Source: Haloarculaceae archaeon (GTDB lineage Archaea; Halobacteriota; Halobacteria; Halobacteriales; Haloarculaceae). From it: DNA of 64,000 nucleotides. The notes beneath the pieces were generated by a model, which saw nothing but the letters and a program-made list of their open reading frames with translations, had not been told where the DNA came from and did not search any database. Shown piece by piece: positions 1 to 38,140 of the stretch. The stretch spans positions 24,182 through 88,181 of the forward strand of contig SKTU01000005.1 in the NCBI GenBank assembly GCA_007122455.1. Reading direction: 5' to 3'. The position numbers were made by a program, and so were the translations under genes. The first letter of the stretch is position 1. Every line of letters begins with the position of its first letter.

Positions 1-1
1 C

Positions 2-1606
2 GGAAACGGTACCGACGACGATACAGCGCCGACCGAGGACGAGCTGGGGGGCTCGATCGAGGCCGGTTGGCTCATGGACCAGATCCAGAACCTCGACCCA
101 CACTTCGTCAATCGCGGCGAGCAGATGGCCATTCACCACAACATCCACGCCGCGCTCGTACGGCTCGACGCCGAGGGCAACATCGTCGGTGAACTGGCCG
201 AGGACTGGGAACTTCTGGACGACACCACCTACCAGTTCGATCTCCACGAGGGTGTGACGTTCCACAACGGCGACCCACTCGACGCCGAGGCCGTTCAGTG
301 GTCGATGAACCGGCTCCGAGATACCGAGGAGTCGCCGCACTTCGGCAAGGTCGAATCGATAACGAACATCGACACACCGGACGAAACCACGGTCGTCATC
401 GAGCTCGAGGAGCCACTCTCGCCGTTCCTCGCGTTCATGACTAACGCACCCGGCCGCGCCGGGACGATCGTCAATCGGACGGCCCTCGAAGAGATGGGCG
501 ACGACGACTACAACTTCATGCCCGTCGGCGCAGGGCCGTTCGAACTCGTCGACCGGACGCCCGGCGAGTCGCTGACTCTCGAAGCCTACGACGACTACTT
601 CGAGACCGACGAAGAGGGCAATCAGCTTCCCTACCTCGACGAGATCGAGATCAATCTGATTCCCGAATCTTCGACCATCTGGTCGGCCTTCGAGACGCAG
701 GAGATCGAATTTGCCCAGGCACTGCCCGCCGAGCAGGCCAACCAGGCCGAGGGACGCCCCGACATCCAGGTCGAGGGGACCGACCAGGGCTACCGCGCGG
801 TGTCGTTCCTCGCCAAGGATCCCCAGGAAGAGCCCGAGTGGGCGGTCGTTGCCGGGAACCCAGACAGCGTCGACGAGGTAACCGACGCCTGGGAGGGCGA
901 AGAGATCCCGACCGCTGACCCCCGCGTCCGCCGTGCGCTCTCGAAGGCTATCGATCGCGAGGAACTCGTCGAGCGTGCCCTGATGGGTTGGGGTATTCCC
1001 GCCCACTCGCTGTGGCAACCCTCCGTCGCGATGGCCTACGAGGAGGAGCCGGATCCGGGCCAGTATTACGACCCCGAGGCTGCCCGAGAACTGCTCGACG
1101 AGGCGGGCTACACCGGCGATCCGCGCTTCGAAGTGGAGATGTTGACCCGCCCCGGAAACGACGAGCGAGTCTGTACGGTCATCCAGGACATGTGGGCCGA
1201 CGTCGGCGTCGAAATAACGCTCAACGTCCAGCAACCCGCGGGCTACTGGGACACCTTCTACAACTACGAGTCGATGGTCGCGCTCACGTCCTCGGCGACG
1301 ATGATCGATCCCTGGATGGCGTGGTTCCGCCAGCTTACGACCCCAACCGGCGAGGGGAACATGGGGGTCTGGCAGAAGGGTCTGTGGTCCAACGAGGAGT
1401 TCGACGAACTGCTCCTGGAGTCGCGGGCGACGCCCGACCCCGACGAGCGGATGGAGGTCGTCCGCGAGGCCGAGGAGATCTTCATGGAGGAAGCTCCCTA
1501 CGCGATGACGCACTTCCCCCTACGGCCGGTCGGATCCCACGAGGATCTCTCGGGCGTCCAACTGCCGGTCGGCCTCACGAACTTCCACTACGCACGTCTC
1601 GAGTAA
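2..1606 (+). CDS. ABC transporter substrate-binding protein, dipeptide/oligopeptide (SBP_bac_5) family, 5' truncated by window
   Basis: ORF is open through the window edge upstream of the ATG at 74; SBP_bac_5-like sequence (YQFDLHEGVTFHNGDPLDAEAVQWSMNR; DPRVRRALSKAIDREELV); followed by permease and ATPase genes. Confidence 0.93.
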   Translation, partial: GNGTDDDTAPTEDELGGSIEAGWLMDQIQNLDPHFVNRGEQMAIHHNIHAALVRLDAEGNIVGELAEDWELLDDTTYQFDLHEGVTFHNGDPLDAEAVQWSMNRLRDTEESPHFGKVESITNIDTPDETTVVIELEEPLSPFLAFMTNAPGRAGTIVNRTALEEMGDDDYNFMPVGAGPFELVDRTPGESLTLEAYDDYFETDEEGNQLPYLDEIEINLIPESSTIWSAFETQEIEFAQALPAEQANQAEGRPDIQVEGTDQGYRAVSFLAKDPQEEPEWAVVAGNPDSVDEVTDAWEGEEIPTADPRVRRALSKAIDREELVERALMGWGIPAHSLWQPSVAMAYEEEPDPGQYYDPEAARELLDEAGYTGDPRFEVEMLTRPGNDERVCTVIQDMWADVGVEITLNVQQPAGYWDTFYNYESMVALTSSATMIDPWMAWFRQLTTPTGEGNMGVWQKGLWSNEEFDELLLESRATPDPDERMEVVREAEEIFMEEAPYAMTHFPLRPVGSHEDLSGVQLPVGLTNFHYARLE

Positions 1607-1628: not shown

Positions 1629-2588
1629 ATGAGACGGTATATTGCGAAACGGCTGCTACATTCACTCGTCGTCGTCTGGATCGTCGCCACCGTCGTCTTC
1701 GCCGTCGTTCGGGCTATCCCAGGCGACCCCGTCCAGCTCATGCTCGGCGGGGACGCCACCCAGGAGGCCCGTGAACAGCTTCGAACTCAGCTTGGCCTCG
1801 ACGAACCGATCTACGTCCAGTACGCCCGCTGGATGGGCCGACTCGCCCAGGGCGATCTCGGTGAATCCCTCTCTACCGGCGTACCGGTACTCGAACTGCT
1901 GATCCAGGTCGGCCAACCGACCGTCAGCATTGGGCTGCTCGGTATGCTCATCGCACTGTCGATCGCCATTCCGGCCGGCCTGATCAGCGCACTCCATCAG
2001 TACGAGTGGGACGATTACGTCGCGACGTTCATCGCCTTCCTCGGGATCAGTATGCCCGGCTTCTGGGTCGGCATCCTGCTGATCGTCTTCATCTCACAGC
2101 GCTTCGAATTCCTCCCGGCCTTCGGCTACGTCGGTCCGGGAGAAGGAATCCGAGCCTGGTTCAGCCACATCATCCTCCCAGCGATCGCCGTCGGCGTCCC
2201 CTACGGCGGCATTATCATGCGGATGATGCGCTCGTCGATGCTAGAGGTGATGAACGAGGACTACATGCGAACCGCCCGCGCGAAGGGTCTCTCACCGCAA
2301 CTTATCGTGATGAAACACGCCTTCCAGAACGCCCTGATTCCGGTCGTAACGATCGCTGGTATCCTGCTCGGAACGCTTCTGGGCGGGGTCGTCGCCGTCG
2401 AGATCGTCTTCGGTATCCAGGGCCTCGGACGGCTACTCATTAACTCGGTCCACCAGCGGGATTTCCCGGTCGTCCAGGGAAGCATCGTCATCATCGCGGT
2501 GATCTTCGTATTGACGAACCTGCTCGTGGACCTGCTGTATACGGTCCTCAATCCCAAGATCAAGTACGGCGACGGGGGTGAATCCTGA
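1629..2588 (+). CDS. ABC transporter permease, DppB/OppB-like
   Basis: Hydrophobic; RTARAKGLSPQLIVMKHAFQNALIPVVT permease EAA-type motif; operon context. Confidence 0.93.
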   Translation: MRRYIAKRLLHSLVVVWIVATVVFAVVRAIPGDPVQLMLGGDATQEAREQLRTQLGLDEPIYVQYARWMGRLAQGDLGESLSTGVPVLELLIQVGQPTVSIGLLGMLIALSIAIPAGLISALHQYEWDDYVATFIAFLGISMPGFWVGILLIVFISQRFEFLPAFGYVGPGEGIRAWFSHIILPAIAVGVPYGGIIMRMMRSSMLEVMNEDYMRTARAKGLSPQLIVMKHAFQNALIPVVTIAGILLGTLLGGVVAVEIVFGIQGLGRLLINSVHQRDFPVVQGSIVIIAVIFVLTNLLVDLLYTVLNPKIKYGDGGES

Positions 2589-3501
2589 TGGGAATCCTCG
2601 CGAACGTCTTCGCGCGGTTCGTCGACACCGACAAGGCACGGGTGTTCGGCATTCGGACGGACATGCTCGAGCGCCTGGGACTCGTCTTGGGCCGGGACCG
2701 CAAGGCCCAACTCGGAGTCGCTATCGTCGGCATCGTCGGCTTCATGGCCGCCTTTGCCCCGATCCTCGCGCCGCACGATCCGATGGGCCAGGATTTCCCC
2801 GTCCTGCTCGAACCGCAGTTCGTCGGAGCGGGCGCCCTCGGGACCGACTCCTACGGTCGGGACATGCTCTCGCGGCTCATCTACGGCGCTCGAATCAGCC
2901 TGCTCGTCGGGATCGGCGCGGTCGCCGTCGGTGCCATCATCGGGATGGTCATCGGACTGGTCGCCGGCTTCTTCGGTGGGCTCGTCGACGATGTCCTCAT
3001 GCGTATGATCGACATTTTCTGGGCGTTTCCCTACTTGCTCGTGGCGATCATGCTCGTGGCCATCTTCGGTCAGGGGCTCTGGAACGTCATCATCGCGCTC
3101 GGATTCGCCTACATCGACGACTTCGCCAGGATCATCCGCGGCGAGGTACTCGCGTTGCGCGAAGAAGAGTTCACCCTCGCCGCACGGAGCATCGGCCTCA
3201 CGAGCCGCGAGATCATGGTCGGGGAGATCTTCCCGAACACGATCGCCCCGCTGCTCGTGATGTACACTGTCTTGGTCGCCCGCGCGATGATCGCCGAGGC
3301 GACGTTGTCGTTCCTCGGGCTCGGCGTCAGACCGTCGACACCGACCTGGGGTTCGCTGCTCGGCCAGGGCCGCGGCTTCGTGACCGAGGCGTGGTGGATC
3401 GGAATCCTTCCGGGCTTGATGATCGTAATCACCGTGTTCGGAATCAACCTCTTTGGAGATGCACTACGAGACGCGTTCGACGTACGGAGGAGTGAAGGCG
3501 G

Positions 3502-3505
<4 letters not shown>
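2588..3505 (+). CDS. ABC transporter permease, DppC/OppC-like
   Basis: LGTDSYGRDMLSRLIYGARISLLVG typical of DppC; overlaps upstream stop; operon context. Confidence 0.93.
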
Positions 3506-4589
<1,084 letters not shown>

Positions 4590-4593
<4 letters not shown>

Positions 4594-5747
4594 ATTCGCT
4601 CGAAAGCGAAATCGAGCCGGAAACGGGAACGGAAACAGAAACGGCTGCAGAACCGCTGTTGAAGGCCACGGATCTCCAGAAATATTTCGAGACCGAAACC
4701 GGCCTGACCGAGCGTATACTCGGCAACCAGCAGTACGTCAAGGCCGTCGATGGAGTCGATCTCAGCATCGACCGTCAGGAAACCGTCGGCGTCGTCGGCG
4801 AGAGTGGCTGTGGCAAAACCACTCTCGGTCGAACGCTATCGAAGCTCTACGAACCGACCGGTGGGACGATCGAGTTCGACGGCGAGGACATCACCGACCT
4901 CTCCTCGAAGGAACTCCGGGAACTCCGAAGTCGCATCCAGGTGATCTTTCAGGATCCGCTTTCCTCGCTCAATCCGCGGAAGACCGTCGGCGAAATCCTC
5001 GGGAAACCCCTGGAGATTCACGACATCGCGACGGGCGAGGCGAAACGGGAACGGGTCGCGGAGCTCCTCGAGGAGGTTGGTCTCCAGCCGAGCCACGCTA
5101 GCCGCTATCCACACGAGTTCAGCGGCGGGCAACGTCAACGGATCGGCATCGCGCGAGCAATCAGCATTGAACCCGATCTGATCATCGCGGATGAGCCGGT
5201 GAGCGCACTGGACGTCTCCGTGCAGGCTCAGATCATCAACATGATGAAGCGCCTCCAGCGGAAGTACGACCTCTCGTACGTTTTTATCGCCCACGACCTC
5301 AGCGTCGTCAAACACATCAGCGACCGGGTGATGGTGATGTATCTCGGCAACATCGTCGAGCAGGGTCCGAAGGACGCGATCTTCAACAACCCACAGCATC
5401 CGTACACCAGGGCGTTGCTCTCGTCGATTCCGACAATCGACGAGACGCCCGAGAAGCGCCGGACTGCGCTCCAGGGGACGCCACCCAGTCCTATCGATCC
5501 GCCGTCGGGCTGTCCATTCAGCACGCGATGCCCCGAGTACATCGGCCCGGAGTGTAGCGACGAGCATCCGGAGCTGGAAACCGTCGCGGACAAGCCCGGT
5601 TCCATCGACGCGCCCGAAGACGTTCCGACGATCCTCGAAGAGTACGAGAGTCCCGAATCACACCACGCAGCGTGTCACTGGCTCGAACGGTCGGGCGACG
5701 AACGGTGGAGCCACGAGGCGCCGGCCATCGGCGAACGCGGCGAGTAG
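4590..5747 (+). CDS. ABC transporter ATP-binding protein, DppF/OppF-like
   Basis: Walker A GESGCGKT, SGGQRQR signature, LIIADEPVSALD, CPFSTRCPEYIGPEC. Confidence 0.95.
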
Positions 5748-6014
5748 TCGGCTGATTCCTTCGATTCGGAATCGATCGGCGGCGACTGGATTCCGTCCTT
5801 CGAAAGTGTGACGTGCTGAATACGCACTCTCTACTCGGTAAAACCGCATAACCGATCACGCTCTGTGGATTTCAACAGGACCCCTGCAGAAGTTCTCGGT
5901 AGATATCGCCAAAGATTGGCTCACGGAATAGTCGTGTGCTTCGGGCTCCGTGGGAGCGGTCTCGAGAAGCTACGTCGCGAAAAAGATTTATCGGACTCCA
6001 CGCTACTCACTACC

Positions 6015-6638
6015 GTGCCAGCCCTCCACGCCACCCGTCGGCACCTACTCAGTGGCATCGCCGCGGGAATGGTAGCCCCCCTCGCAGGTTGTGCCGCGGG
6101 GGAGGCCGACGACGTCGACGTCCGAGACGAGATCCGGGACCCCGGCTCCGAACTCCCTGACGGAGCGACGACAGATATCGAGATCCGGTCGCTCCGCGCC
6201 CCGGATGAAGAGCCGTTCGTCCGCGTGGCAGACGAGGACGAACCAGAGGAGGAAGGGCCATCCCGACACCGGGCACAGGCGTTCGTCCTCGACGACGGCG
6301 ACGCCGCAGCCCTCCGGATCGACGGCGACCACGACGCCGCCGAGGAAATCCTGAGATTCGTCGAGGCGACCGACTTCGAGAGCGCCTCCGTCGTCGTCCA
6401 CCAGCGCGGCATCGAGGCGTGTTACGAGCGCCGCGTCGAGTACGTCGAACTCGAACCGGATCGGTACCGCGTCCAGTTCTGCCGGCAGTTGAAGGATGCG
6501 ACGGAACACTGCGAGGCCGACGCGACCGAGATCGAGGCGGTCTTTCTCAGAGTCCCCCAGCCCTACGACGAGGAACCGTCTCGACGCGGGAGCGGCGAGC
6601 GCTCCGCGTGTCGCCACTACGGCGAGGAGAGCGCATGA
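6015..6638 (+). CDS. Putative lipoprotein, hypothetical
   Basis: Likely GTG start inside ORF 5865..6638 giving (M)PALHATRRHLLSGIAAGMVAPLAGCAAGEADD: twin-Arg plus lipobox; TATA-like aaaaagatttatc about 25-30 bp upstream. Confidence 0.6.
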   Translation: MPALHATRRHLLSGIAAGMVAPLAGCAAGEADDVDVRDEIRDPGSELPDGATTDIEIRSLRAPDEEPFVRVADEDEPEEEGPSRHRAQAFVLDDGDAAALRIDGDHDAAEEILRFVEATDFESASVVVHQRGIEACYERRVEYVELEPDRYRVQFCRQLKDATEHCEADATEIEAVFLRVPQPYDEEPSRRGSGERSACRHYGEESA

Positions 6639-28783: not shown

Positions 28784-31700
28784 ATGGCACGCGCGGAGGA
28801 CACCGAAGTTATCGAGGCGTTCGAGCAGTTCTACCGCGACTACTACCGAAACGAGATCGGCGAACTCGCCCAACGGTATCCGAACGAGCAGCGATCGCTC
28901 TACGTCGACTGGGGAGATCTCTACCGGTACGATCCGGACCTCGCGGACGACTTCATCGCCCAACCCGAACAGATGCGCGACTACGCCGAGGAGGCGCTCC
29001 GGCTCTACGACCTCCCGGTCGACGTCAAACTCGGGCAAGCGCACGTCCGCATACAGAACCTGCAGGAATCGACGTCGATTCGGGAGATCCGCGCACGCCA
29101 TCGCGGCCAACTGATCGCCGTCAGCGGTATCGTCCGCAAAGCCACCGACGTCCGTCCGAAGATCACCGAGGCCGCCTTCGAATGCCAGCGCTGCGGCACC
29201 CTCTCTCGGATCCCACAGACCAGCGGCGAGTTCCACGAACCCCACGAGTGCCAGGGCTGTGAACGACAGGGACCGTTCAATATCAACTTCGACCAATCGG
29301 AGTTCGTCGACGCCCAGAAGCTCCGCATCCAGGAGTCTCCCGAAGGGCTCCGTGGCGGCGAAACGCCACAGAGCATCGACGTCCACATAGAGGACGACGT
29401 CACCGGCGAGGTGACTGCCGGCGATCACGTCCGCGTGACGGGGATCCTCCACCTCGACCAGCAGGGGAACAACCAGGAGAAATCTCCGATCTTCGACGTC
29501 TACATGGACGGCCTCTCGGTGGAGATCGAGGACGAACAGTTCGAGGACATGGACATCACCGACGAGGACAAAAAGAAGATCATCGAACTCTCCGGCCAAT
29601 CGGAGATCTACGAGAAGATGGTCGGCTCGATGGCGCCCTCGATCTACGGCTACGACCAGGAGAAACTCGCCATCATCATGCAGCTGTTCTCCGGGGTGAC
29701 CAAGGAGCTTCCGGACGGCTCCAGAATCCGTGGAGACCTCCACATGCTTCTGATAGGGGATCCCGGGACGGGGAAGTGCGTGGGCCCCGAAACCAGGGTC
29801 ACGCTGGCCGACGGATCCGAACGGGAGATCGGAGCGCTCGTCGAGGCGAAGCTCGATGATCCGAAGCCGGTCGACGACGGCGTCTACGACGAGGTATCGT
29901 TTCAGGTTCCGTCGCTTGCGTCCGACGGACGCGTCGTACTCCGACGCGCGACGCGAGTCTGGAAGCGTCAGGCACCCGAACGGATGTATCGAATCCGAAC
30001 CGAGAGCGGCCGCGAGCTCGAAGCGACGCCGAGCCATCCGCTGTTCAGCCCATCGGCCGCCGGCATCACGGCGACGAAGGCGGCCGAACTGTCGGCGGGG
30101 GAGTTCATCGCCGTGCCGCGACAGCTCCCAACCGTCGGTGACGACAGCCTCGACGTCTCGTTCCGGCGCTCCGAGGCGAGCGACGCGGATCGCGTCGAGC
30201 CGCCAGAGACGCTGACGCCGAAGCTTGCCCGTCTCCTCGGCTATCTCGTCGCCGACGGCCACGTCGAACAGGAAGGGGTCGTTCGGATCGCCAGCGACGA
30301 TCGAGCGGTTCTGGACGACGCGGCAGCCGCTCTCGACGATCTCGGCGTGAGTCACGACCGTGAACTCGTCTGCCGCTCGGGTGAGCTCGTCCGGTTCCTC
30401 CGGGAGATCGAACCGACGATCCCGAGTGGCTCCGCCGAACAGCGCGTCCCGGCTCCCGTGCTCCGCGCGACCCGCCCGGTAAAGCGCGGATTCCTCCGGG
30501 CGTTCGTCGACACCGGAGGAGTGGTTTCCCCGGAGCGGCGTTCGATCGTCGTCGAATCGTCGAGCAAGGAGCTCCTCGAAGGGATTCGGAGCCTCTTGCT
30601 ATCGTTCGGCATCGACGCACGGCGCCGCGAGCGCTCCGGCGGCCGCTACCGACTCCGAATCGACAGGGAAAATTTCACGCGATACGTCGAGGAGATCGGG
30701 TTCGTGACCGATCGAAAGGCGAGTCCGGCGGCCGAACGCCCGAACACCGCCGAAGACGCGAACCGGGACGTCGTTCCGAACGTCGGGAACGCACTCTGCA
30801 CGCTCAGAGAATCGTTCGGGCTGACGCAGGGCGACTGCGGACTGCCGACGACGACCTACCGTCAGTACGAGTGCGGCGACCGGAACCCGAGCCGCGAATC
30901 GCTCCGTACGATACTCGACGCGTTCACGGCCGCATCCGACGACGGAGTCGCAGCCGACGGAGGGACGGCCGTCGAAGGTAGCCTGGCGTCGCTCCGGTCG
31001 CTGACCCGAGAGGGCGTCGGGTGGGACCGGATCGTCTCGATCGAATCCGTCGAACCGGCGTACGACTGGGTGTACGACCTCGAGGTAGAGGGAACACACA
31101 GCTACGTCTCCAACAACGTTCTCTCGCACAACTCACAGCTTCTCCAGTACGTCCGCAACCTGGCGCCGCGATCGGTGTACACGTCCGGAAAGGGATCCTC
31201 CAGCGCGGGTCTCACTGCGGCTGCCGTCCGCGACGACTTCGGCGACGGCCAACAGTGGACCCTCGAAGCCGGCGCCCTGGTGCTGGCCGACCAGGGGATC
31301 GCCGCCGTCGACGAGCTGGATAAGATGCGGTGCGTCACCGGGGATACGCTGGTACACCTGGCTGACGGGCGCGTATCCAGGATTCGCGACCTCGCGCTGG
31401 AGGCCGCAGAGAGCGGAGAGATCGAGCCACTGGAGAACGGTCGAACGATCCGCGACGTCGATCTTACCGCGTGGACGATGACGGACGACGGCCGTCTGGT
31501 CGAACGGTCAGTGACCGCAGTTCACGAGTACGACGCTCCGGAACGGCTCACCGAGGTTACGCTCGAGTCGGGCGAATCCGTCGTGACGACGCCGGATCAC
31601 CCGTTCTTCGTGTTCGAGGACGGCGAACGGAGAGAGCGAGCCGCCGAGGAGCTGGACGCCGACGACTGGGTGTACGTTCCGCGCCGCCTTTCGCCGTCGG

Positions 31701-34700
31701 TAACCGACGGCGGCACGGTCACGGCGGCAACGGCCGTCGGTCGAGCCGAGGGCTCATCGTCGTCCGCGTTCGGGAGGGTCCTGGGATATCTCTCCGGGAG
31801 CGGTAACGTGTACTACAACGACCCGGATGGGCGCTACGGACTCGAATTCATCCATCAATCGGAAGCGTTGCTCGCAGATTTCGAGAACGCGTGCCGAAAG
31901 GCGTTCAGTGCCGAGCCGGTTCGGTACCCCAGCGAACAGCGCGAGGACGGCGTCGGGACCGTTCGGCTTCGCGGGCGTGAGTATGCCGACCAGGTGCTCG
32001 ACGCCGGAACGAACCTCGAAACGTGCGAGGAGGAGGCGTTTCCCGCGGCTGTTTCCGAAGCTGACCGGAATACCAAGGCAGCATTCATCAGAGCGATGGC
32101 CGACAGCGAAGGGGGCGTCGATACGGCGTCCGGAAACGTAACTATCTCCTCGACGAGCGAAGAGCTCCTCGTCGGGATCAAGAGCCTGTTGCTGGAGTTC
32201 GGAATCTCCTGTCAGATCCAGACGCGTGAACGGAGCGGGGATCTCGACCTGCACGAACTCGTCATTACAGCAGCGGACTCGATCCGGGCGTTCGAGCGCG
32301 AGATCGGATTCACGCTCGAACGAAAACAGAGCGCTCTCGAGACGGTTTGTGCCAGCGTCGATGGTGATCGAACCGGTTGCGACGTGTTACCGGAGTGTGG
32401 CGAACTGCTCGCACAGGTCCGGGAATCCCTGCGACTCTATCAATCCGAGTGCGGACTCGCCGGTTCGACGTACTGCAGTTTCGAGGACGGGGAGGCGAAC
32501 ATCTCGTTACAGCAGGGAGAAACAGTTCTCACAGCCTTCGAGGATCGCATCGATCAGGCTGAATCGGACACCGAGACGCTGTCCCAGAAGTGTGACTGGT
32601 CGACGCTGGAGCGACTGACGGATCGATACCACGTATCTCAGGCTGAACTCGCGGACGGACGTTCGTTCAGCCAGCAACGTGTTTCGGAGCATTGGGGGCG
32701 AAACACGTCGCTTCGAGAGGCGGTTCGACGTCGCCTTCGGGAGATCGTATCGGCCGTTGCCCGAACGGAGATCGACGTGTTCGCCGATCTGATAACCGGT
32801 GACGTGAAATGGCGCCGTGTCAGCGAACTCGAAACGGTGGAACCGAACTACCGGGACGACAGAATACCGATTTTCCGACGGGAGATCGCGAAGCGGCTCG
32901 CCTGTGGTCCCGACGAAGCCGAGAAACGTGCTGAGGACGTTCTCCAGCGAGCGCCGAAGATCGACTCGTGGGCAACGCTTCGGGGAGAGCTCGAACGGCA
33001 CGAAATCCATCTAGAGGCGCTCGTGGACGATCTCGGCGTCGCCTCGTCGACGATCCCCGGGTTGATCAGCGGCGTCGGAACCGACCGGTTCGACGATTTA
33101 AAAGCTGCAGCCGAGGACCGAATCTCCGAGAAGCGGGACCGGATTCGGACGCTTCTCGAGCGGATCGAGGATCGAAGCGGACCGAACGTGTACGACCTCA
33201 CGGTCGCGGGAACACACAACTTCGTGGCTAACGGCATGGTCGTCCACAACTCGGAAGACCGCTCCGCCATGCACGAAGCGCTCGAGCAGCAGTCCTACCA
33301 CCCCGACACCGAGATCCTCCTGGCCGACGGGCGCCGGGTCGAGATCGGCGAGTTCGTCGACGAGCGGATGGCGGCGGCCGGGACGGTCGTCGACGGCGTC
33401 GACTGCGAGATCCTGCCGGTCGACGACCTCACGGTCCACTCCGTCGACTTCGAGACGGACGAGACGACGAAGCTCCCGGTTGACCGCCTCAGTCGTCACG
33501 AGGCCCCCGACGAGTTCGTCCGGGTGAAGTTCTCGAACGGCCGAGAGGTGACGGTGACGCCCGAACACCCCATGTTCGTCGACGAGGATGGAAGGGTCGA
33601 AACCGTCGAGGCCCGCGACATCGAGACGGGGGCGTTCGTCCCGGCGCCGCGGAAGCTGCCGAACTCCACTGCCACAGTCGAGTTCGACGCTGAATCGCAC
33701 GTCAGTGAGGAGACGGGCGTGACGCTTCCAGGAGCGCTATCCGGCGATCTGGCGGAACTCCTCGGATTCCTCGCCACGGGGGGAAGCAGCTACGCCGAAC
33801 CGACCCACGAGATCAGCTTCTCGACCCGAGACGAGCGGACACTCGACCGGATTGACGAGTTGGTCAACTCGGTTTTCGGGGTGGAGAGCACCGACGCGGT
33901 CGACGAGAGCGGAACGGTGAGCAAGCGGTGGGTGTCGGCGGATCTGTACCGCTGGTTCGAATCGAACGTCCCCGAACTGATTTGCGGCGCGCACGAGAGG
34001 CGGATTCCCGCGCGGGTACTCGGTGCCTCCGAGGAGACGATCCGACGGTTCCTGGTCGGGGCCTTCGCGGCCGCCGGCAGTGTCGAGAGCGAAGCGACAC
34101 TCTCGGCGGGATCGAAGGGGTTGGCCGAGGACTACGCGGACGCGCTCTCGAAAGTTGGCATCGCCTCCCGCCTCCGCTACGACGACGCGGAGGGTGTCTG
34201 GAACGTGTACGCGACGGACGAATCGACGGAGCGGTTCGTCGACCGGATCGCCGAGCCGAGCGACGAGCCCCGGCGTGCGGACGTGTCCGAACGGCGGTGT
34301 GGCCTCCGACGATACCGCGTCTGTGAGGTCGAGGCCGTCCCGAACGAAGGCGAAAACGCCTGCGAGTGGGTCTACGACGTGACCGTCGAGCCGACGAACA
34401 CGTTCGTCAGCAAGGGTGTCGTCCTCCACAACTCGATCAGTATCTCCAAGGCGGGCATCAACGCGACCCTGAAGTCGCGGTGTTCGCTGTTGGGCGCGGC
34501 GAACCCCAAATACGGACGGTTCGACCAGTACGAACCGATCGGCGAACAGATCGACCTGGAGCCGGCGCTCGTCTCTCGATTCGATCTCATATTCACCGTC
34601 ACCGACCAGCCCGATCAGGAGGAGGACGCCGCACTGGCGGATCACATCATACAGACCAATTACGCGGGAGAGCTCAACACGCACCGCGAACAGACGGCGA

Positions 34701-35296
34701 CCTCGAACGTGACTCGGGAGGAAGTCGAGAACGTTACCGAATCGGTCGAACCGGAGATCGAAGCCGAGCTGCTGCGGAAGTATATCGCCTACGCCAAGCG
34801 GAACTGCTTCCCGACGATGACCGAGGAGGCGAAGGAGGCCATTCGGGATTTCTACGTCACCCTTCGTGCGAAAGGTCAAGACGAGGACGCGCCGGTCCCG
34901 GTCACTGCGCGGAAACTGGAGGCGCTGGTCCGGCTCTCGGAAGCCTCCGCCCGAATGCGACTCTCCGACACCGTCGAAGCGGAGGACGCCGAGCGCGTCA
35001 TCAACATCGTCCGATCGTGCCTCCAGGACATCGGCGTCGATCCGGAGACCGGCGAGTTCGACGCCGACGTCGTCGAAACGGGACGCTCGAAGACCCAGCG
35101 TGACCGAATCAAGGACATCAAATCGCTCATCAGCGAGATCGAATCGGAGTACGACGAGGGGGCCCCGGTCGACGAGGTGCTGGATCGCGCCGAGGAGATG
35201 GGCCTGGAGCGCTCGAAGGCCGAACACGAGATCGAGAAGCTCCGACAGAAGGGGGACGTCTACGAACCGAGGACGGACCACCTCCGGACGGTCTGA
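28784..35296 (+). CDS. mcm: Replicative DNA helicase MCM precursor with three inteins (2170 aa; 698-aa host protein after excision)
   Basis: MCM N-domain and zinc site (CQRCGTL...CQGCERQG), split Walker A GDPGTGK|SQLL, Walker B AAVDELDKMR|SEDRS, arginine finger ALVSRFDLIF; removing inteins restores an uninterrupted MCM core. Confidence 0.97.
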   Translation: MARAEDTEVIEAFEQFYRDYYRNEIGELAQRYPNEQRSLYVDWGDLYRYDPDLADDFIAQPEQMRDYAEEALRLYDLPVDVKLGQAHVRIQNLQESTSIREIRARHRGQLIAVSGIVRKATDVRPKITEAAFECQRCGTLSRIPQTSGEFHEPHECQGCERQGPFNINFDQSEFVDAQKLRIQESPEGLRGGETPQSIDVHIEDDVTGEVTAGDHVRVTGILHLDQQGNNQEKSPIFDVYMDGLSVEIEDEQFEDMDITDEDKKKIIELSGQSEIYEKMVGSMAPSIYGYDQEKLAIIMQLFSGVTKELPDGSRIRGDLHMLLIGDPGTGKCVGPETRVTLADGSEREIGALVEAKLDDPKPVDDGVYDEVSFQVPSLASDGRVVLRRATRVWKRQAPERMYRIRTESGRELEATPSHPLFSPSAAGITATKAAELSAGEFIAVPRQLPTVGDDSLDVSFRRSEASDADRVEPPETLTPKLARLLGYLVADGHVEQEGVVRIASDDRAVLDDAAAALDDLGVSHDRELVCRSGELVRFLREIEPTIPSGSAEQRVPAPVLRATRPVKRGFLRAFVDTGGVVSPERRSIVVESSSKELLEGIRSLLLSFGIDARRRERSGGRYRLRIDRENFTRYVEEIGFVTDRKASPAAERPNTAEDANRDVVPNVGNALCTLRESFGLTQGDCGLPTTTYRQYECGDRNPSRESLRTILDAFTAASDDGVAADGGTAVEGSLASLRSLTREGVGWDRIVSIESVEPAYDWVYDLEVEGTHSYVSNNVLSHNSQLLQYVRNLAPRSVYTSGKGSSSAGLTAAAVRDDFGDGQQWTLEAGALVLADQGIAAVDELDKMRCVTGDTLVHLADGRVSRIRDLALEAAESGEIEPLENGRTIRDVDLTAWTMTDDGRLVERSVTAVHEYDAPERLTEVTLESGESVVTTPDHPFFVFEDGERRERAAEELDADDWVYVPRRLSPSVTDGGTVTAATAVGRAEGSSSSAFGRVLGYLSGSGNVYYNDPDGRYGLEFIHQSEALLADFENACRKAFSAEPVRYPSEQREDGVGTVRLRGREYADQVLDAGTNLETCEEEAFPAAVSEADRNTKAAFIRAMADSEGGVDTASGNVTISSTSEELLVGIKSLLLEFGISCQIQTRERSGDLDLHELVITAADSIRAFEREIGFTLERKQSALETVCASVDGDRTGCDVLPECGELLAQVRESLRLYQSECGLAGSTYCSFEDGEANISLQQGETVLTAFEDRIDQAESDTETLSQKCDWSTLERLTDRYHVSQAELADGRSFSQQRVSEHWGRNTSLREAVRRRLREIVSAVARTEIDVFADLITGDVKWRRVSELETVEPNYRDDRIPIFRREIAKRLACGPDEAEKRAEDVLQRAPKIDSWATLRGELERHEIHLEALVDDLGVASSTIPGLISGVGTDRFDDLKAAAEDRISEKRDRIRTLLERIEDRSGPNVYDLTVAGTHNFVANGMVVHNSEDRSAMHEALEQQSYHPDTEILLADGRRVEIGEFVDERMAAAGTVVDGVDCEILPVDDLTVHSVDFETDETTKLPVDRLSRHEAPDEFVRVKFSNGREVTVTPEHPMFVDEDGRVETVEARDIETGAFVPAPRKLPNSTATVEFDAESHVSEETGVTLPGALSGDLAELLGFLATGGSSYAEPTHEISFSTRDERTLDRIDELVNSVFGVESTDAVDESGTVSKRWVSADLYRWFESNVPELICGAHERRIPARVLGASEETIRRFLVGAFAAAGSVESEATLSAGSKGLAEDYADALSKVGIASRLRYDDAEGVWNVYATDESTERFVDRIAEPSDEPRRADVSERRCGLRRYRVCEVEAVPNEGENACEWVYDVTVEPTNTFVSKGVVLHNSISISKAGINATLKSRCSLLGAANPKYGRFDQYEPIGEQIDLEPALVSRFDLIFTVTDQPDQEEDAALADHIIQTNYAGELNTHREQTATSNVTREEVENVTESVEPEIEAELLRKYIAYAKRNCFPTMTEEAKEAIRDFYVTLRAKGQDEDAPVPVTARKLEALVRLSEASARMRLSDTVEAEDAERVINIVRSCLQDIGVDPETGEFDADVVETGRSKTQRDRIKDIKSLISEIESEYDEGAPVDEVLDRAEEMGLERSKAEHEIEKLRQKGDVYEPRTDHLRTV
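29777..31132 (+). other. Intein 1 of MCM (452 aa), at Walker A GDPGTGK|S
   Basis: Cys1 (CVGPETRVTLADG), block B ATPSHPLF, blocks F/G DWVYDLEVEGTHSYVSNNVLSHN followed by Ser+1. Confidence 0.95.
31331..33250 (+). other. Intein 2 of MCM (640 aa), at DELDKMR|S
   Basis: Cys1 (CVTGDTLVHLADG), block B TTPDHPFF, blocks F/G NVYDLTVAGTHNFVANGMVVHN followed by Ser+1. Confidence 0.95.
33293..34432 (+). other. Intein 3 of MCM (380 aa), at HEALEQQ|S
   Basis: Ser1 (SYHPDTEILLADG), block B VTPEHPMF, blocks F/G EWVYDVTVEPTNTFVSKGVVLHN followed by Ser+1. Confidence 0.94.
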
Positions 35297-35609: not shown

Positions 35610-35948
35610 GTGCTGTTGGTGGTGACGTACTCCCAGTCGGCTCGGTCATCGCTTCGAAACGTCTGTCGAATCCACGAGGGAACCGTCGTTCGGCGGCTCG
35701 GTCGGGCGGCGCTGTTCGAGGAGACGGAACACGGCGCGTTCCTCGGCCTTCGCCTTCGGGAAAAACATCCCGATAGCGTACAGGTCGAGCGCACCGAACC
35801 GTTCAACGAGTTTCGGGACGTCGACGAATCGGTGCGCGCGGCGGCGATCGATTACGAGAACCGCGAACGCGAGAGCACGCCATACGCGAAATTCGCCGCC
35901 GGAACGTCACACCCCGAACCCGAGACGCTGAAGCAAACGGAGCTATGA
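35610..35948 (+). CDS. Conserved haloarchaeal hypothetical protein
   Basis: 112-aa ORF in collinear cluster; ATGA overlap with next gene. Confidence 0.7.
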   Translation: MLLVVTYSQSARSSLRNVCRIHEGTVVRRLGRAALFEETEHGAFLGLRLREKHPDSVQVERTEPFNEFRDVDESVRAAAIDYENRERESTPYAKFAAGTSHPEPETLKQTEL

Positions 35949-36709
35949 GGGTCGATCTCTCTTCGTACGATCTCGATCCGGCAGCCGTTGCGACGACCGT
36001 GCGAGCTGCCGACGGACCGTTCGAGTTGGAGCCGACGGCGGCTCACGAACACGTCGGTTGCATCACTCCGGAGATGGAGTTCGACCGGCGAGCGGCGATG
36101 GCTGCAGCGGCACGTACGCGCGACGTGACCACGACCGTCGACGACGCGCTCGCATCGGCTCGAGAGGAGCGCCGGGAACTGGAGCCGATCGATCCGGAGA
36201 CCACCGACGCCCGCCGACGAGTCGCAGAAGCGGCGGCGGAGTTGGACGAACTCCGTGAGGAAGTCGCCGCAAAACGCGGTCGGCTGAACGCACACCGTGA
36301 ACACGGTGACGGAAACAAAGCAGAGGCCGAATATCTCGACGCCGTCCGATCGCTCTCGGAGGCCGAAACCGAGTACGCTGCTGCCGTCGAGCAGCTCGAG
36401 GAGGCGGAGGCTGCGGCCCGCAAAGCGAGGGACGAACGGGAGCGTCAGCTTCAGCTCGTCGACCGGATCGACAATCTCCAACGAACGGCCCGCGAGGAGC
36501 GAGTGGATGCGATTCGACCGGCAGTCGAGGACGCGGTACGTGCCGCCCCCGGCGACAGTACCGAACTGGCGACCGCCGACGGACCGACCGCGGCCATGGC
36601 GCTTGCCCGCGTCTCGGAGCTTCGGGCGCCGGTCGTCCTCTCCTGTCGTCGCTTTTCCGACGTCGAGACCGCCGGCAGGTGGCTGGACGCGTCGGTAATT
36701 CGGCTCTGA
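35945..36709 (+). CDS. Conserved haloarchaeal coiled-coil hypothetical protein
   Basis: Heptad-rich central region (AEAAAELDELREEVAAKRGRL...EAETEYAAAVEQLEEAEAAARKARDERERQL). Confidence 0.7.
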   Translation: MRVDLSSYDLDPAAVATTVRAADGPFELEPTAAHEHVGCITPEMEFDRRAAMAAAARTRDVTTTVDDALASAREERRELEPIDPETTDARRRVAEAAAELDELREEVAAKRGRLNAHREHGDGNKAEAEYLDAVRSLSEAETEYAAAVEQLEEAEAAARKARDERERQLQLVDRIDNLQRTAREERVDAIRPAVEDAVRAAPGDSTELATADGPTAAMALARVSELRAPVVLSCRRFSDVETAGRWLDASVIRL

Positions 36710-36739
36710 TTTATCCCGAAAGCCGAGAGCAGAGAGCGT

Positions 36740-37273
36740 ATGGTGAGGCGTTCGATCACGACCCGGAGATCGGATGGGGTTACGTTCGTCCAGGTGACGG
36801 TTTCAGTCGAAGAACGGTCCCGGCTTCGGATAGAGTACCACGGCGACGGAACGGTGCTTCCGCCGCGCCGTGGTGGCGAGCCGGAGTCCGGCTGGAACGA
36901 GGGGGGGACCGAACGAGTTGTCGACGTCGGTTCGTCGGGGATCGGATTCGCTGTCGTCGAGCCCGTCGAGCCCGAGGACGTCGAGTTAGCTGTCGATCCG
37001 ATTCCCGACGAGTCGGCGGGTGCCGTCGATGCCTGGTTCGATCGCGTCGACGAGCGGCTTCGATGCGCCGAAGAGATTGCAGCGGCTCGAACGCTGGAGG
37101 AAGCGACGGCGGCAGTCGCAGCAGCCGGCGGGCTCGGGGCGGTCGAGCGTCTCGCGGCGGCGGTCGTCCGTGATCGTCGATTGCTCGAGCGAATCGAAAC
37201 CGCACCGGACGCATTGCTCGAACGGGCCGAGCGAACGGAGCTCCCGACCGCGGAACTGCGACGGCTCGCCTGA
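36740..37273 (+). CDS. Conserved haloarchaeal hypothetical protein
   Basis: 177-aa ORF, collinear, abuts convergent tfb. Confidence 0.65.
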   Translation: MVRRSITTRRSDGVTFVQVTVSVEERSRLRIEYHGDGTVLPPRRGGEPESGWNEGGTERVVDVGSSGIGFAVVEPVEPEDVELAVDPIPDESAGAVDAWFDRVDERLRCAEEIAAARTLEEATAAVAAAGGLGAVERLAAAVVRDRRLLERIETAPDALLERAERTELPTAELRRLA

Positions 37274-38140
37274 TCAGTTCCTGACGTCCCGGTAGGTGTT
37301 CCGAATTGTCACTGCGGAGACGCCGGCGACGTCAGCGGCGTCGGTCTGCGTGAGATCGTGACCGGCAGCCTGTGCAGCCGTGTAGAGACACGCGGCGGCG
37401 ACACCACTCGGATTCCGTCCCGCAGCCGTGCCGTCCTCGTGGGCAGTTGCCGCGATCTCGCGGGCGCGACACTCGACCTCCTGGGGGAGCTCCAGTTTCG
37501 AGGCGAACCGAGCGAGATACTCGCGGGGGTCGATCGGACCGGTCGAAAGACCCAACTCTCGGTTGAGAGCGTCGTAGGCGGCCTTCAGCTCGTCGGCGTC
37601 GGCAGCCGCGATCGAGACGACTTCCGCGAGCGTTCGCGACACCGAGTCGGTCCGACAGACGGCGTAGACCGCTGCCGCGGCGAAACCCTCGATAGAGCGT
37701 CCGCGGAGGAGGTCCGCTTCCTGTGCCGACTCGAAGAGAACGCAGGCCCGTTCCTGAAGCGTATCTGGAAGCTCCAGTTGGCTCGTCAACCGCCGAATCT
37801 CGGTGAAACCGTACACCTGGTTCCGCTCGCGTTTACTCGAGATTCGAGCACGGTTGTGCTGGCGGCGCATCCGCGCGACGCGGCGACGCTTCCGCCCTTT
37901 TAGCCGCGTCGAACGGCCAATCTCGGTGGAGAGCCCGCGATCGTGTCGCGACCGGGTCAACGGCGCACCGGTCCGTTCGGGGTTCGTCTCGTCGTCGTCG
38001 AACGAGCGCCACTCCGGGCCTCGATCGATCGCGTCTTCGGCGACGATCAGTCCACACTCGCTACAGACGGTTTCCGTGTCGGTACTCCGGAGCCGCCCCT
38101 CACACTCGGGACAGTTTCGTGCTGTCGTGCTGCTCATCAC
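37274..38140 (-). CDS. tfb: Transcription initiation factor IIB
   Basis: Zinc ribbon CPECEGRLRSTDTETVCSECGLIVAEDAID, WRSFD, two cyclin-like repeats (FAAAAVYAVCR; VAAACLYTAAQ). Confidence 0.93.
   Translation of the reverse strand: MMSSTTARNCPECEGRLRSTDTETVCSECGLIVAEDAIDRGPEWRSFDDDETNPERTGAPLTRSRHDRGLSTEIGRSTRLKGRKRRRVARMRRQHNRARISSKRERNQVYGFTEIRRLTSQLELPDTLQERACVLFESAQEADLLRGRSIEGFAAAAVYAVCRTDSVSRTLAEVVSIAAADADELKAAYDALNRELGLSTGPIDPREYLARFASKLELPQEVECRAREIAATAHEDGTAAGRNPSGVAAACLYTAAQAAGHDLTQTDAADVAGVSAVTIRNTYRDVRN

Follow-up and report, generated by a model that had tools for sequence, protein, structure and literature searches.

A Natronomonas MCM helicase gene with three inteins whose homing endonucleases are predicted to be inactive

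An MCM gene interrupted at three published sites

The window, the whole 64,000-nucleotide stretch of haloarchaeal DNA that we analyzed, carries a gene for the replicative MCM helicase that is interrupted by three inteins (Table 1). Pfam domains on the open reading frame (ORF) comprise MCM_N, MCM_OB, MCM, MCM_lid, and the archaeal MCM winged helix, together with three stretches of Intein_splicing (PF14890; 8.8e-58) and five of LAGLIDADG_3; NCBIfam adds three N-terminal (TIGR01445) and three C-terminal (TIGR01443) intein splicing regions. Core haloarchaeal MCMs were defined as proteins of 697 to 702 aa without inteins that have Walker A/B motifs and share at least 68% identity inside the group. 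The window MCM belongs among them, with 698 aa and up to 90.6% identity to Natronomonas, and its N-terminal 331 aa are 88% identical to those of N. aquatica F2-12 and Natronomonas sp. LN261. Judged by these named relatives, the source organism is a Natronomonas (Haloarculaceae). The source assembly, a metagenome-assembled genome (MAG) with 149 contigs and 2.93 Mb in total (87% complete, 2.2% contaminated), shows one allele per gene. Downstream of mcm lie two adjoining genes (window 35945-37270) that match the Pfam families of unknown function DUF7856 and DUF7857; a TFB gene follows on the minus strand (37277-38140).

Table 1. Features of the mcm ORF in the window and further loci of the same assembly
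Feature	Sequence	Positions	Strand	Remarks
mcm ORF, core haloarchaeal MCM replicative helicase	window	28784..35296	+	ATG start, 2170 codons, single open frame, 698-aa extein
MCM extein 1	window	28784..29776	+	N-terminal and OB domains up to Walker A GDPGTGK
Intein, site MCM-a	window	29777..31132	+	452 aa, Cys1...HN|S, LAGLIDADG endonuclease and HTH_31-like segment
First LAGLIDADG acid, a intein	window	30254-30256	+	Asp kept
Second LAGLIDADG acid, a intein	window	30515..30517	+	E to G; FVDTGG, relatives Y(V/I)D(A/G)E(G/C)
MCM extein 2	window	31133..31330	+	SQLLQYVRN... to Walker B DELDKMR; contains empty site MCM-b
Intein, site MCM-c	window	31331..33250	+	640 aa, full length, Cys1...HN|S
First LAGLIDADG acid, c intein	window	31799..31801	+	D to S; YLSGSG, relatives YLSGDG
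Second LAGLIDADG acid, c intein	window	32108-32110	+	Glu kept
MCM extein 3	window	33251..33292	+	14 aa, SEDRSAMHEALEQQ, separates inteins c and d
Intein, site MCM-d	window	33293..34432	+	380 aa, Ser1...HN|S
First LAGLIDADG acid, d intein	window	33779..33781	+	E to G; FLATGG, relatives FLVAEG
Second LAGLIDADG acid, d intein	window	34073..34075	+	D to A; FAAAG, relatives FAGDG
MCM extein 4	window	34433..35296	+	remaining AAA+ core, lid, winged helix, stop
Second core-type mcm	L009 (G000:C83, 8.1 kb)	3274-6387	minus	carries two mini-inteins, 177 aa at site a and 160 aa at site b
rfcS intein	L237 (G000:C22)	2318-4210	minus	631 aa; motif 1 E to G, SGAR; motif 2 intact
polB intein	L240 (G000:C46)	4293-5540		both LAGLIDADG acids kept
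rpoA'' intein	L239 (G000:C86)	1-1047		both LAGLIDADG acids kept
DP2 (DNA polymerase II large subunit) mini-intein	L236 (G000:C33)	about 2329-2817		ends Gln (TGQ|C), not Asn

The preliminary description of this DNA had already given the 2170-codon ORF, the 698-aa MCM, and the three inteins with their coordinates, all of which proved exact to the base; its figure of about 68% intein content agrees with the 67.8% computed here. It had also placed the insertions correctly, at Walker A, just after Walker B, and at HEALEQQ|S, which are the published sites MCM-a, MCM-c, and MCM-d. The cut points read GDPGTGK|C...HN|SQLL (a), DELDKMR|C...HN|SEDR (c), and EALEQQ|S...HN|SISIS (d) and fall at extein positions 331, 397, and 411; in Haloferax volcanii MCM, these three sites are at 335, 401, and 415 (PMC3972481).

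An intein splicing domain is recognized by a nucleophilic residue 1, a TxxH block B, and a C-terminal HN with Ser, Thr, or Cys as +1. The splicing residues named in that description were all found, and they agree with those of orthologous inteins. Residue 1 is Cys, Cys, and Ser in the a, c, and d inteins of the window, as it is in their orthologs (Cys in 68/68 a and 45/45 c inteins, Ser in 35/35 d inteins); block B reads TPSH, TPDH, and TPEH, and every C terminus, in the window and among the orthologs, has HN followed by Ser+1 at the three sites. The closest relatives are same-site inteins (aligned identity of 63% for a, 63% for c, and 71% for d), and the best solved-structure matches of the c intein are archaeal cell division control protein (MCM) inteins, 6rpp and 6rpq. 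None of the three is a mini-intein, that is, an intein of about 160 to 210 aa with its endonuclease domain deleted: they are 452, 640, and 380 aa long with LAGLIDADG_3 matches, and mini-inteins at sites a, c, and d in our survey have about 173 to 206, 180 to 205, and 180 aa. From these features, we infer that all three excise themselves from the precursor.

The preliminary description would have been refuted by a failure of the excised protein to align gaplessly with intein-less haloarchaeal MCMs. It passed this test: the excised MCM aligned with seven of them at 79 to 87% identity, with extein residues 300 to 450, in the catalytic core, free of gaps. We give almost no credence to the idea that the inserts are removed as RNA and are not inteins, or that the frame is an assembly artifact; we found no support for it, and it is opposed by the 2170-codon open frame, the three full splicing domains with their conserved splicing residues, and dozens of genomes, closed ones included, in which orthologous inteins occupy the same points. 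Because each intein interrupts the ATPase core, the earlier statement that all three must be excised is upheld.

We collected the core mcm genes of the family, drawing on about 145 genomes, and measured insert lengths at the four published MCM sites, a, b, c, and d (PMC3972481, PMC10643990). The occupancy count rests on 137 usable genes, among them second copies from MAGs; five mcm loci that are cut by a contig end or have a poor site d flank were excluded. Forty genes have no intein, 46 have one, 36 have two, 11 have three, and 4 have four. The three-intein genes comprise six with a+c+d, three with a+b+c, one with a+b+d, and one with b+c+d. The exact a+c+d combination occurs in three other Natronomonas (sp. 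LN261, G136, locus L017; G125, L018; G130, L023). Haloquadratum walsbyi MCM (Q18E84; 2216 aa) has inteins at a, b, c, and d (PMC3972481); both it and the window MCM are core haloarchaeal MCMs with several inteins at the same ATPase core sites, but site b, filled there, is empty in the window. The preliminary description regarded triple occupancy as noteworthy, which these data do not bear out. With a+c+d recurring in Natronomonas, with three or all four sites filled in 15/137 mcm genes of the family, and with an MCM of four inteins on record since 2014 (PMC3972481), three filled sites are ordinary for the group and add little as a novelty.

The same description called this MCM the only replicative helicase. 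Against this stands another mcm of core type in the assembly, on contig C83 (8.1 kb); the evidence assigns that copy to a contaminant from another family. The N-terminal part of its MCM is 90 to 91% identical to a different haloarchaeal family (f7) and 71 to 76% identical to Haloarculaceae, the window MCM included, and the neighboring thiolase is 86% identical to f7 versus 73% to Natronomonas. The other survey genomes with two core mcm copies (G108, G116, and G150) are fragmented MAGs. On these grounds, we rejected the C83 gene as a genuine second helicase and consider, from its sequence affinities, that it almost certainly lies on a contaminating contig. With the copy treated as a contaminant, the word "only" is probably right, although this assembly does not prove it. 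Residual PF00493 matches on contigs C128, C132, and C100 were not counted as MCM; their scores are near the cutoff, and the family also matches bacterial controls.

Catalytic acids and evolution of the endonucleases

The earlier reading missed the unusual part of this gene, which is that, by comparison with aligned relatives, catalytic acids of the endonuclease are lost in all three inteins. An active endonuclease has Asp or Glu in both LAGLIDADG motifs; the window inteins have Asp and Gly (a), Ser and Glu (c), and Gly and Ala (d). Both acids are present in 123/126 endonuclease-bearing mcm inteins of the family (48/49 at a, 22/22 at b, 21/22 at c, and 32/33 at d) and in 20/20 further endonuclease-bearing mcm inteins from other loci of the order. 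The three window inteins are thus the sole exceptions among 146, with 143/143 relatives intact. By exact count, the chance of 3/3 versus 0/123 is 1 in 325,500, a figure that assumes independent copies but is a guide only, the copies being related.

Two of the inteins are also shortened. The a intein is about 75 aa short of full-length Natronomonas a inteins (527 to 529 aa), and the d intein lacks about 141 aa after the LAGLIDADG core; in both, the missing parts map past this core, where relatives bear HTH-like segments. The HTH_31-like segment of the a intein lies at window 30794-30943 (ORF residues 671 to 720; Pfam 3.7e-4, below the cutoff), and the c intein has a similar stretch, VRESLRLYQSECGLAGSTY. 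These segments of the a and c inteins are probably part of endonuclease DNA recognition. A close comparison is with the three Natronomonas a+c+d genes, which share genus and sites with the window gene and, at L017 and L018, 87 to 88% extein identity. Their inteins are full length (522 to 529 aa at a, 639 to 641 at c, and 523 at d) with both acids present, whereas the window gene has shortened a and d inteins and has lost acids from all three.

The endonuclease parts also show signs of relaxed selection. In trees of these parts, the window tip branch is the longest at every site (0.60 for a, 0.57 for c, and 0.55 for d, against medians of 0.14, 0.27, and 0.09); in trees of the splicing parts, its rank is near-normal (5/49, 8/22, and 5/33). 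Because synonymous differences are close to saturation (pS, 0.5 to 0.7), the contrast is given as ratios of dN in endonuclease to splicing parts, with no absolute dN/dS claimed: 1.45 (a), 1.39 (c), and 1.83 (d) for pairs that include the window, compared to 1.03, 1.23, and 0.92 for other Natronomonas pairs. The contrast is weakest at site c.

By the substitution of their catalytic acids, all three homing endonucleases of the window mcm are predicted to be dead. A different reading, which we regard as very unlikely, is that the inteins are still mobile, either because the substituted endonucleases are active or through co-homing with an active neighbor, and that this is another spreading multi-intein allele. 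Inactive elements are co-converted by active neighbors in phage introns, and an acid is kept in motif 1 of the a intein and in motif 2 of the c intein. This gene, however, has no active neighbor, an acid being missing from all three; the d intein has neither acid and is about 141 aa short; and the endonuclease parts of all three evolve fastest in their families. Co-homing itself was tested with Haloferax mcm inteins, where no sign of it was seen (PMC10643990), which counts against continued mobility.

Other inteins of the same genome

Outside mcm, the rfcS intein is predicted to contain another dead endonuclease: its motif 1 reads SEAR or AEAR in relatives, with E in 7/7 compared. The polB and rpoA'' inteins, whose host genes group with Natronomonas, keep both acids. 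The genome also contains a mini-intein in DP2 and an nrdJ intein that runs off its contig. With the three mcm inteins counted, an acid is lost in 4/6 inteins of the genome that have both motifs readable. We rejected complete, genome-wide loss of homing, since polB and rpoA'' kept both acids; endonuclease decay in this genome is broad but incomplete. The lapse of homing selection thus does not extend to all inteins of the lineage.

The persistence of three inteins, or four with rfcS, in replication proteins with no apparent homing and near-normal splicing parts could also be read as retention for a function. Splicing of the three inteins would then be a posttranslational switch that gates MCM under salt, redox, or other stress, homing having gone; conditional splicing has been reported for haloarchaeal inteins. 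Inteins can persist without benefit to the host, however, since they are rarely deleted precisely, and any other deletion destroys the host gene. Moreover, close relatives hold 0, 1, 2, 3, or 4 mcm inteins, so the genus does not require a fixed switch. We consider such a switch very unlikely, and we hold equally little belief in its evolutionary form, in which homing was lost independently in the three mcm inteins and these were retained as splicing of MCM, and of the clamp loader RfcS, became a host-used replication control.

A probable late stage of the homing cycle

The explanation that we find very probable, given the sequence comparisons, is that the single core mcm of this Natronomonas was colonized at sites a, c, and d by inteins that have kept splicing and lost homing, which would place them late in the homing cycle, fixed and past homing. 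The colonizers of the ATPase core would be LAGLIDADG inteins of class-1 type (Cys1/Ser1) that belong to the haloarchaeal MCM families. Translation would give a single 2170-aa precursor, from which each splicing domain would excise itself and join its flanks, yielding the 698-aa helicase and three free inteins. The homing endonucleases, each without at least one catalytic acid and two of them also shortened, would be inactive. Homing selection would have lapsed, while purifying selection would still maintain splicing, MCM being essential. This stage would have been reached by three neighboring mcm inteins and by the rfcS intein of the same genome. Both the loss of cleavage and its cause in the homing cycle are what we infer from these data; other strains of the lineage may have intact endonucleases.

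A proven precedent for acid loss with the endonuclease fold kept and cleavage lost is the VMA intein of Pyrococcus horikoshii, which splices although both active-site aspartates are missing from its endonuclease and block E is shortened; cleavage returned only after catalytic residues were grafted in (PMC8966425). That case differs in the host protein and in involving a single intein. In one known mcm intein system with the same sites and families, both endonucleases are active in vivo, whereas those of the window are predicted to be inactive.

Many mcm inteins in the survey have lost the endonuclease outright and are mini-inteins. The dead-but-present state was seen in one genome only among the 146 endonuclease-bearing mcm inteins examined, the others keeping both acids, which suggests that it is short-lived. 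A triple-intein MCM is of a known kind; the clustered loss of all three homing endonucleases in one gene is the unusual part, and it bears on the question of endonuclease decay in fixed inteins, whether it happens and at what point (homing cycle; PMC1654191). The window mcm is of modest interest as a natural case of the late homing cycle, and a Natronomonas population of this type would offer a natural setting in which the decay could be timed and the fate of endonuclease-free inteins, persistence or purging, followed.
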